DNA of 64,000 bases from positions 6,012,001 through 6,076,000 of the forward strand of contig NZ_JAALDK010000001.1 of NCBI RefSeq assembly GCF_013366925.1, written 5' to 3'. Origin of the DNA: Paraburkholderia youngii. Lineage in GTDB: Bacteria; Pseudomonadota; Gammaproteobacteria; Burkholderiales; Burkholderiaceae. The translations under genes were made by a program, and so were the position numbers. Of the stretch, positions 35,052 through 37,486 are shown piece by piece; the stretch's first letter is position 1; each line of letters begins with the position of its first letter. Below the pieces are notes generated by a model that did not search any database, was not told the DNA's origin, and saw nothing but the letters and a program-made list of their open reading frames with translations.

Positions 35052-36023
35052 ATGACCGACTCGACCAATACGACTTCTCCCTTCCCCTGCGCCCGCTTCA
35101 TCAAGGAAATCGGCCGCGGTCCGAACGGCGCCCGCGCGCTGACCGCGGACGACACCCGCGCGCTCTACACCGCAATGCTCGACGGCCGCGTCGACGATCT
35201 CGAGCTCGGCGCGGTGCTGCTCGCGTATCGCGTGAAAGGCGAAACCGCTGACGAACTCGCCGCGATGCTGGCCGCCGCGCATACGTCGTTCGAGCCGGTG
35301 CGGCTGCCCCACGGCGCGTTTCGGCCCGTTTCGATTCCGTCGTACAACGGCGCGCGCAAGCAGCCGAACCTCGTGCCGCTGCTCGCGCTGCTGCTCGCGC
35401 GCGAAGGCGTGCCGGTGCTCGTGCACGGCGTCACCGAAGATCCGGGTCGCGTGACGAGCGCGGAAATTTTCACGCATCTGCGCATCGTCCCTGCGCAGTC
35501 GCACGCGCAGATCGAAGCGGGTCTCGCCGAGCGTCGCGTCGCGTTCGCGTCGATCGACGTACTCGCGCCCAAGCTCGCGCGCCTGCTCGCGCTGCGCCGG
35601 CGCATGGGCGTGCGCAACTCGACGCATACGCTCGTGAAGCTGCTGCAGCCATTCGCGCCCGCGGGGCTGCGGCTCGTGAATTACACGCATCCGCCGTATC
35701 GCGACAGTCTCACGCAGCTGTTCATCACGCATCCCGATGCGGCCGTCGGCGGTGCACTGCTCGCGCGCGGCACCGAAGGCGAGGCGGTCGCCGATACGCG
35801 CCGCCAGGTGCAAGTCGACTGGCTGCATGACGGCATCTGCGAGACGCGGCTGCCGCACGAGCGCTCTTCGCCCGATGCGCCCGAAGTCGAGCTGCCCGAA
35901 GCGCGCGACGCGGCGACCACGGCCGCCTGGATCGACGCCGTGCTGCGCGGCGAAGCACCGGTGCCGGGCGCGATCGAACGGCAGGTCGAGCTGATCGTCG
36001 ATATCGCGAAGACGGCGGCCTGA
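35052..36023 (+). CDS. ybiB: YbiB family DNA-binding protein (TrpD2-like)
   Basis: A 323-aa member of the anthranilate phosphoribosyltransferase-like fold that binds nucleic acid rather than acting in Trp synthesis. The N-terminal helical domain ARFIKEIGRGPNGARALTADDTRALYTAMLDG and the VLVHGVTEDPGRVTSAE loop are typical of YbiB, with degenerate PRPP motifs. E. coli YbiB is LexA-regulated; I saw no LexA box upstream here. ATG at 35052 is chosen; the long upstream open frame crosses the FAH gene on the other strand. Confidence 0.85.
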   Translation: MTDSTNTTSPFPCARFIKEIGRGPNGARALTADDTRALYTAMLDGRVDDLELGAVLLAYRVKGETADELAAMLAAAHTSFEPVRLPHGAFRPVSIPSYNGARKQPNLVPLLALLLAREGVPVLVHGVTEDPGRVTSAEIFTHLRIVPAQSHAQIEAGLAERRVAFASIDVLAPKLARLLALRRRMGVRNSTHTLVKLLQPFAPAGLRLVNYTHPPYRDSLTQLFITHPDAAVGGALLARGTEGEAVADTRRQVQVDWLHDGICETRLPHERSSPDAPEVELPEARDAATTAAWIDAVLRGEAPVPGAIERQVELIVDIAKTAA

Positions 36024-36033
36024 CGGTCGCGGC

Positions 36034-36063
36034 TTGACAGGCCAGTGCACGCCGTCATACATT
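36034..36063 (+). promoter_or_regulatory. Promoter of the leu leader peptide/leuA remnant
   Basis: A perfect TTGACA (36034-36039), an 18-nt spacer and TACATT (36058-36063, 4/6). The start site would fall at about 36070, one base before the leader-peptide ATG. It lies 10 nt after the ybiB stop. Confidence 0.55.
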
Positions 36064-36070
36064 TGGCCCC

Positions 36071-36145
36071 ATGCGTTCCCTCCCGAACACCCTCCGAATT
36101 ATCTCCGGCCGCCTAGCGCGGCCCCTATCGCTACGCCTGGCGTAA
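36071..36145 (+). CDS. Putative leucine attenuator leader peptide
   Basis: A 24-codon ORF directly after a promoter. It encodes six Leu and two Ile; three of the Leu codons (positions 15, 19 and 21) are CTA, normally the rarest Leu codon in a GC-rich genome. A leader with clustered rare Leu codons is the hallmark of leu operon attenuators. The stop codon lies in the loop of an 8-bp hairpin. The downstream gene is a leuA relative, which fits. It is too short to judge by homology, and expression is inferred. Confidence 0.5.
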   Translation: MRSLPNTLRIISGRLARPLSLRLA

Positions 36146-36159
36146 GTCACGCGTAGCGC
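36130..36159 (+). promoter_or_regulatory. Hairpin spanning the leader-peptide stop (attenuator 1:2 stem)
   Basis: CGCTACGC (36130-36137) pairs perfectly with GCGTAGCG (36151-36158) across a 13-nt loop that includes the TAA stop. A ribosome stalled at CTA codon 19 or 21 would cover the first strand. Further pairing options downstream are CCGCGCG (36159-36165) with CGCGCGG (36274-36280), and TCTCGCTTC with GAAGCGAGA near 36212 and 36283. No terminator with a T-tract is seen before leuA. The rest of the 255-nt gap shows no gene. Confidence 0.45.
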
Positions 36160-36400
36160 CGCGCGCTGGCAGCTCCGGTTGCCGTCGGCGGTCCTCCCGG
36201 TAGTTCCCGCAGTCTCGCTTCACCCCCGTCGTAGTTCTCCACAACCTGTCGTCGTTTGCATTCGTCCGTTTACCGCGCGGGCGAAGCGAGAGGATCAAGT
36301 GCACGTTGCCTCGGGCATCCGCATCGTGCATGCGTGACAGTCGGCCAACCGCTCGACGTCCCACCCTCCGCCGACGACACCACGAATGAGGCACCTCACC

Positions 36401-37486
36401 ATGTTGCGCAATCCCGCTGAAAAGTACCGCCCCTTTCCCGCCGTGCGGCTGACCGGCCGCAAATGGCCGAGTCGCACGATCGACGCCGCGCCCGTCTGGA
36501 TGAGCACCGACCTGCGCGACGGCAACCAGGCGCTGATCGAACCGATGAACGCCGCGCAAAAGCTCGAGTACTTCGAGATGCTGGTCGCGATCGGTTTCAG
36601 GGAAATCGAAGTGGGCTTTCCGTCGGCCTCGCAGACCGATTTCGACTTCGTGCGCAAGCTGATCGACGAGCGGCGCATTCCCGACGACGTCACGATCGAA
36701 GTCTTCGTACCGTCGCGCGCGGAGCTGATCGCACGCACGTTCGAAGCGCTCGAAGGCGCGCCGCGCGCGATCGTGCATCTGTATAACGCGATCTGCCCGT
36801 CGTTCCGGCGCATCGTGTTCCAGCAATCGAAGCACGAGATCAAGGCGCTCGCAGTCGAAGGCACGCGCGTCATCAAGGAACATGCGCAGGCGCGGCCGGG
36901 AACGCACTGGACCTTCCAGTACTCGCCCGAGACCTTCAACACGACCGAGCTGCCGTTCGCGCGCGAGGTATGCGACGCGGTCGCGCAAACGTGGCGGCCG
37001 ACGCGCAATCACAAGATGATCGTCAACCTGCCGGCGAGCGTCGAAGCGGCCACGCCGAACGTATTCGCCGACCAGATCGAATGGATGCACCGCAACCTCG
37101 GCTACCGCGACAGCATCGTGCTGTCGGTGCATCCGCACAACGATCGCGGCACCGCCGTGGCCGCGGCGCAGCTCGCGCTGCTGGCGGGCGCCGATCGCAT
37201 CGAAGGCTGTCTGTTCGGCAATGGCGAGCGCACCGGCAACGTCGACCTCGTCACGCTCGCGATGAACCTCGACGCGATGGCTATCGACAGCGGTCTGGAT
37301 TTTTCGGATCTCGCGACGATCCGGCGCGTGGCGGAGCGCTGCACGCGGCTTCCAGTGGCCGCGCGGCATCCGTATGCGGGAGAAGTGGCGATGCGCGGCT
37401 CACGCGCGGCGCGCGACGCGGATGCCGAGCGCGATGAATACGGCGCAAACAGCCGCGATAAAGCTGAGGATTGCGCAACCGCGTAA
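36401..37486 (+). pseudogene. leuA: Truncated 2-isopropylmalate synthase
   Basis: The N-terminal catalytic barrel of the long-type alpha-isopropylmalate synthase. It has [15 protein letters not shown], the metal-site [14 protein letters not shown] and [14 protein letters not shown]. Homology runs to RHPYAGE (about residue 330, near 37390) and then changes to about 30 unrelated charged residues. Full-length relatives have about 560-570 residues. The missing part includes the FSGSHQDA region with the catalytic His, the linker and the leucine-binding LeuA dimer domain. Synthase activity is therefore unlikely. A start at 36386 is also possible; GAGG favours 36401. Promoter and leader are intact upstream. 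Confidence 0.85.

Follow-up and report, generated by a model that had tools for sequence, protein, structure and literature searches.

What lies between ybiB and leuA in Paraburkholderia youngii? The stretch of DNA analyzed here—the window—is 64,000 nucleotides of a 9.49-Mb genome, and its closest named relative by LeuA, among the loci listed, is Paraburkholderia tuberum (L095, 94%). Its intergenic region holds, in this order after ybiB, a promoter, a 24-codon ORF, a hairpin around the stop codon of that ORF, and then leuA. The features are as follows.

36034 to 36063, + strand: predicted sigma-70 promoter, TTGACA-18-TACATT, which puts the transcript start at or beside the leader ATG.
36071 to 36145, + strand: leucine leader ORF of 24 codons, named leuL here, probably leaderless (from sequence and conservation in 152 leaders).
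36107 to 36123, + strand: hairpin P0, 36107-36112 with 36118-36123, CUA-15 in the loop (covariation; RNAalifold).
36113 to 36133, + strand: stretch with three CTA codons, 15 (36113-36115), 19 (36125-36127), and 21 (36131-36133).
36129 to 36158, + strand: hairpin P1, 36129-36136 with 36151-36158, around the leader stop codon (covariation; RNAalifold).
36159 to 36191, + strand: hairpin P2, in the window only 36159-36162 with 36188-36191, a nested hairpin in its loop (covariation; RNAalifold).
36192 to 36260, + strand: C-rich, G-poor segment (28 C and 13 G in 69 nt), candidate Rho loading region.
36261 to 36285, + strand: hairpin P3, 36261-36268 with 36278-36285, no U-tract behind it (sequence; pair probabilities).
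36299 to 36337, + strand: second small ORF with a GTG start, a 12-codon remnant here and 54-72 codons in many Paraburkholderia.
36386 to 37486, + strand: leuA, a short copy of 366 aa whose start is probably 36401; its only domain is HMGL-like, and its best NCBIfam match is NF011420, 2-isopropylmalate synthase.

The leader ORF encodes MRSLPNTLRIISGRLARPLSLRLA followed by a stop, and its six leucine codons are CTC4, CTC8, CTA15, CTA19, CTA21, and CTG23. An earlier note on this DNA had pointed to such a 24-codon ORF with six leucine codons (CTA at 15, 19, and 21), to a TTGACA promoter 10 nt past ybiB, and to an 8-bp hairpin around the stop codon. All of these are present: the ybiB stop ends at 36023, 10 nt ahead of the promoter, and P1 encloses the TAA at 36143-36145. 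The start of leuA itself is probably the ATG at 36401 and not 36386, because long orthologues (L027) begin MLRNP. Many Paraburkholderia and Caballeronia carry, past P3, a fuller version of the second small ORF (MHVAWAS..., often with RSLLPLA) that ends near or over the leuA start; the same pattern finds none in the Burkholderia and Trinickia loci.

Where would transcription of this region begin? The only sigma-70-like site predicted in 35900-36500 is TTGACA-18-TACATT (shuffles: mean 0.1), and the leader ATG at 36071 lies 7 nt past its -10 element, which places the predicted transcript start at that ATG or one base before it. The geometry is nearly constant across the 152 homologous leaders described below: TTGACA and ATG are 36, 37, 39, and 35 nt apart in 96, 53, 2, and 1 of them, respectively; the promoter spacer measures 18 nt in 151, the remaining leader having 17 nt; and the -10 element stands 6, 7, or 9 nt before the ATG in 97, 53, and 2. 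A distance of 6-9 nt leaves no space for a Shine-Dalgarno site, and judging from this promoter geometry the leader ORF is probably leaderless in all 152 leaders. The earlier reading of an ORF that begins at the predicted transcript start, and is thus almost leaderless, is therefore backed by the promoter geometry of 152/152 leaders—that is, on the level of predicted starts. In the portions of the main texts drawn on here, two Burkholderia cenocepacia transcript-start papers (PMC4603805 and PMC5688073) mention neither leuA nor leucine.

How far is the leader conserved, and does it accompany the gene? We call the leuA copy that adjoins ybiB copy A and took its upstream regions from same-genus genomes and from 80 named records. 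A homologous leader lies 5' of copy A in 152 of 153 loci, spread over Paraburkholderia, Caballeronia, Trinickia, and Burkholderia. It is found in all 73 same-genus loci with ybiB and copy A (L078, whose contig ends inside leuA, was left out) and in 79 of the 80 named loci, the exception being Caballeronia jiangsuensis (L143). Because the two sets share species, the joint total of 152 leaders comprises 136 distinct ones, of which L111 is possibly counted once too often. Of the 152 leaders, 112 are 24 codons long, 28 have 23, and 12 have 25, and every one ends with TAA; two codon-length changes fall on the tree, and the frame is kept through both.

The leader also co-occurs with copy A. Allowing at most one mismatch, the leader pattern is found in 73 of 146 relatives. 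These are precisely the 73 genus genomes that have copy A; the 13 that lack it give no match, and G061 is undecidable, its copy A sitting at the edge of a contig. At the level of the family, the pattern occurs in 178 of 398 genomes and 6 of 25 genera, one genus being represented by a single genome, while a reversed-pattern control gives 5 genomes among the matches listed. Pairwise identity in 47 representatives is 86% in the leader ORF, 57% in the promoter stretch, 25% in the 80 nt 5' of the promoter, and 45% in the 80 nt before leuA; over 75 nt near the leuA start it is 68%, below that of the leader ORF. The earlier note had named in advance what would count against it, namely an ORF and hairpin that are not conserved beside full-length leuA. 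We found the opposite: of the 73 genus genomes with leader and copy A, 52 carry the long form of the gene.

Which leucine codons does the leader use? CTA makes up 583 of 859 leader leucine codons versus 7 of 4457 in the leuA frames. All 152 leaders use CTA for the leucines six and four codons ahead of the stop, and the last leucine codon is CTA in 132 and CTG in 20, the window being among the latter. The early leucine codons (4 and 8) are CTC or CTT and almost never CTA. At the leuA CTA share of 0.0016, and with codons taken as independent, the probability of at least three CTA among six leucine codons is about 8e-8. The difference between leaders and leuA frames thus points to selection on the codon, beyond leucine alone. 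RNA pairing may be a partial cause of CTA retention, as CTA-21 lies inside a P1 arm.

Is the RNA structure conserved as well? P0 spans codons 13-18, and 808 of its 816 cells are paired in the 136 leaders, four of its six pairs having changed on both sides. Over the first eight pairs of P1, 1035 of 1040 cells are paired in the 130 leaders anchored by script, and the remaining 6 of the 136, not anchored, have a mismatch at one P1 pair. P2 is paired in 87% of cells over six pairs and is weaker in the window than in its relatives; P3 has a mean pair probability of 0.5-0.8 in 47 representatives. Covariation was scored in 34 of 41 aligned representatives, seven with one codon fewer in P0 being excluded. 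In P0, P1, and P2 together, both-side changes affect 8 pairs and 13 cells, a level reached by 0 of 500 shuffles, and controls in which the pairing was slid gave 1 to 4 both-side-changed pairs. RNAalifold, unaided, returned the same three hairpins. Furthermore, the third position of Arg-22 (CGU, CGC, or CGA) tracks the opposite P1 arm, and the window leader folds better than its shuffles (z -3.5).

How much of this change is independent? Mapped on the leuA tree, P0 shows two changes at pair 1 and five at pair 6, and P1 shows 23 at pair 8; in an underpowered comparison of independent row pairs, the best pair scores 3 same, 0 opposite, and 1 without (p 0.25). The three hairpins are thus supported by covariation in which few changes are independent. 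An alignment with relatives, as the earlier note had proposed, accordingly recovers a conserved short ORF with leucine codons, and covariation of that same kind, with few independent changes, speaks for the stop-codon hairpin. Other pairings were also considered. The lowest-energy fold of the window, an alternative that we label 0a:2b + 0b:2a, pairs in 95% of cells, and its covariation is not beyond that of shuffles. An extension of P2 as antiterminator was rejected: its pair A95/Y155 seemed to covary (Fisher p 6.7e-6, uncorrected for kinship), but 51 of 175 leaders carry an A-C mismatch at that pair and G-C occurs mainly in two groups, and the score of the extension derives mostly from pairs shared with P2. 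Among the alternatives tried in the leader set, no mutually exclusive pairing proved convincingly conserved.

Might the ORF be an untranslated by-product, its conservation owed to the hairpins and promoter only? P0 and P1 do cover much of its 3' half. However, its length varies by whole codons only (23, 24, or 25), stop and frame are kept in 152/152, and CTA-19 is invariant though it lies outside the hairpins, so we regard this explanation as very improbable. Somewhat less remote, but still improbable, is that the leader encodes a general translation-stress peptide or a small trans-acting one (like peTrpL of Sinorhizobium), with leucine sensing as a minor matter. The peptide is unusually conserved, in its non-leucine residues too, and leaderless leader peptides are able to act in trans according to the sections of PMC7298713 that bear on this. 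Against such a role, CTA is kept despite synonymous options (152/152 at two positions), RNA pairing accounts for much of the remaining conservation, and in the genus the leader is missing where copy A is missing.

Taken together, we consider it likely, from sequence comparison, that the leader is a leucine-responsive, ribosome-mediated attenuator of leuA. Two marks of such a system are present: a short leucine-rich ORF directly before a biosynthetic gene, and conserved RNA structure over the control codons, in P0 and P1. The attenuator reading is favored because the leader is conserved in nearly all copy-A loci and matches copy A exactly within the genus; because its frame, TAA, CTA use, and leaderless geometry are kept while P0 to P2 covary; because it is more conserved than leuA itself; and because distant leuA genes also have leucine leaders in leaderless geometry.

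How would such an attenuator work? Transcription would start at the leader ATG, and a ribosome would load on the bare 5' end of the leaderless message. CUA—with UUA the rarest leucine codon—would be met in the 3' half of the leader, at codons 15, 19, 21, and often 23. With leucine plentiful, the ribosome would reach UAA and leave, P1 and P2 would form, and the message would be aborted before leuA. Under leucine shortage, the ribosome would stall on the CUA codons and block P1, whose 5' arm is codons 20-22, and transcription or translation would then proceed into leuA. We infer CUA stalling and the leucine response from established leader-peptide attenuation.

What could abort the message? A terminator scan of the window found no U-tract terminator between leader and leuA (0 sites), and in the 46 of 136 leaders scanned there was no conserved terminator, 9 of them having scattered terminator-like sites. 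The earlier observation that no U-tract terminator is obvious therefore holds, both in the window and as a conserved trait of the leaders scanned. In the window, the C-rich segment behind P2 has a C-minus-G value at the 98.5th percentile of its own locus, the top position lying over the leuA start and not behind P2. Both anchors were located in 95 of 136 leaders; there the P2-P3 segment has its median at the 97.7th percentile of same-size locus windows, exceeding the 95th percentile in 84% of these leaders and the 99th in 20%. The signal is modest, as the median leader value is matched or exceeded by 4.6% of random best-of-240 windows. Because there is a C-rich segment and no terminator, we tentatively propose Rho-dependent termination behind P2 as the off-step, a serious possibility that falls short of an expectation.

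A different off-step, which we consider possible but on the unlikely side, is translational: the leader RNA would mask a ribosome site belonging either to leuA or to the second small ORF, stalling of the ribosome would expose it, and transcription itself would not be terminated. In whole-leader folds, the GAGGGU ribosome site past P3 pairs with ACCCUC in codons 7-8, the pairs occurring in 17-29 of 47 representatives with a mean probability of 0.31-0.53, and the second small ORF of many Paraburkholderia and Caballeronia lies behind that site, ending near or over the leuA start. The site is, however, not conserved: the ORF pattern detects no second ORF in the Burkholderia and Trinickia loci, and the window has just 12 codons of it, although the leader persists. 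Codons 7-8, moreover, do not covary with the ribosome site. A terminator-free precedent exists in the actinobacterial LEU element, where, in the passages of PMC1262725 devoted to it, a leucine leader ORF likewise precedes leuA with no obvious terminator. The LEU element differs in forming a pseudoknot whose base stem joins the leucine codon run to the leuA ribosome site, whereas the CTA stretch of the window lies in the local hairpins P0 and P1. In a test for a base stem of this type, the site past P3 paired, in part of the 47 representatives, with codons 7-8 and not with the CTA stretch, and covariation was absent. Separately, an anti-Shine-Dalgarno pairing of GGUCCUC (the P2 3' arm) with the site past P3, picked by eye, was rejected; it is lost in Burkholderia and Trinickia.

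How does the attenuator proposed here compare with known systems? In textbook attenuators the leader has a Shine-Dalgarno site for its translation and works through an intrinsic terminator, and enteric leuL has the rare CTA among its leucine codons. The leuL attenuator of Escherichia coli and Salmonella likewise has a short ORF with leucine codons before leuA and hairpins behind those codons, as described in part of PMC6123439. By comparison, the window ORF is probably leaderless and its peptide unrelated, we found no intrinsic terminator here, and leuA lies outside any leuABCD operon. The window leader is distinct from the enterobacterial leu leader, and neither it nor six further loci match an Rfam family. 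In Sinorhizobium meliloti, the trpL (rnTrpL) transcript likewise begins with the leader ATG, according to the relevant sections of PMC7298713, but that system has Trp codons and a terminator yielding a small RNA and belongs to another bacterial class. Leader ORFs occur with Rho-dependent termination—proposed for the mycobacterial cys leaders and cited for E. coli tna—in the same portion of PMC1262725; these involve other amino acids and genes, and the possible Rho sites of the mycobacterial leaders are described there as unconserved.

Among the open-access titles searched, none describes a leuA leader for Burkholderiaceae; an earlier description may exist elsewhere. Leader-peptide attenuation is long known; the combination found here matched nothing in Rfam or in the open-access literature searched: a conserved leucine leader that seems to begin with the message's first base and has no visible terminator, in at least four genera. 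It would offer a natural, well-conserved setting for 70S loading on leaderless messages and for the coupling of a stalled ribosome to a nonintrinsic off-step.

Is the enzyme itself equipped to sense leucine? The window LeuA has only the HMGL-like domain, and an allosteric domain is undetectable. Long copy A proteins (L027 and L153) add IPMS_D2, with no LeuA_dimer at E 0.001, and copy B (L002) has all three domains. Of the 73 genus genomes that have copy A, 21 carry the short form, with neither IPMS_D2 nor LeuA_dimer, and every one of the 73 retains the leader. Copy B stands alongside in 21 of 21 short-form genomes versus 8 of 52 long-form ones (Fisher p 4e-12, uncorrected for kinship). Thus, the proposed leucine sensing at the RNA level would be paired with a copy of isopropylmalate synthase in which an allosteric domain is undetectable.

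Do other leuA genes of the order have leucine leaders? We assembled 36 copy-B-like leuA genes, five from the genus and the others from further families and genera of Burkholderiales. A short ORF with at least 4 leucines in 12 codons is common on its own, occurring at 26 of 36 loci, on 7 of 36 reverse strands, and in 117 of 360 shuffles. The same ORF combined with leaderless promoter geometry is found at 15 of 36 loci, on none of the 36 reverse strands, and in 2 of 360 shuffles. The five copy-B leaders of the genus fail the leaderless filter; by eye, L002 has TTGACG 37 nt before its ATG. Under a permissive rule, 12 of 23 order-level leaders have a terminator-like site, and those of L094, L295, L298, and L085 look classical. 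Leucine leaders before leuA thus look like an order-wide trait, and in the window's type the terminator is lacking.

Copy B (L002, L079-L082) has a leucine leader of its own, MYRAQTTLSLLLARSTGLGLLLRAS, which has a CTATCGCTA...CTAGC stretch in common with the window leader; this shared stretch suggests a common origin of the copy-A and copy-B leaders. More speculatively than for the Rho step, we suggest that Burkholderiales have a class of leaderless leuA leaders and that, in one lineage among Burkholderia and its close relatives, an intrinsic terminator may have been swapped for a Rho or ribosome-site switch while the enzyme lost its leucine-binding domain, which would make the RNA the sole leucine sensor of that copy. 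A further observation is an 11-bp hairpin, GGUUGNCNGGC...GCCNGNCARCC, often with a 15-nt loop; it was picked for its pairing, so that its pair counts are no independent test. It stands before leuA at 9 of the 36 order-level loci (L083, L085, L090, L280, L281, L286, L288, L290, and L291) and also at copy A in several Paraburkholderia.
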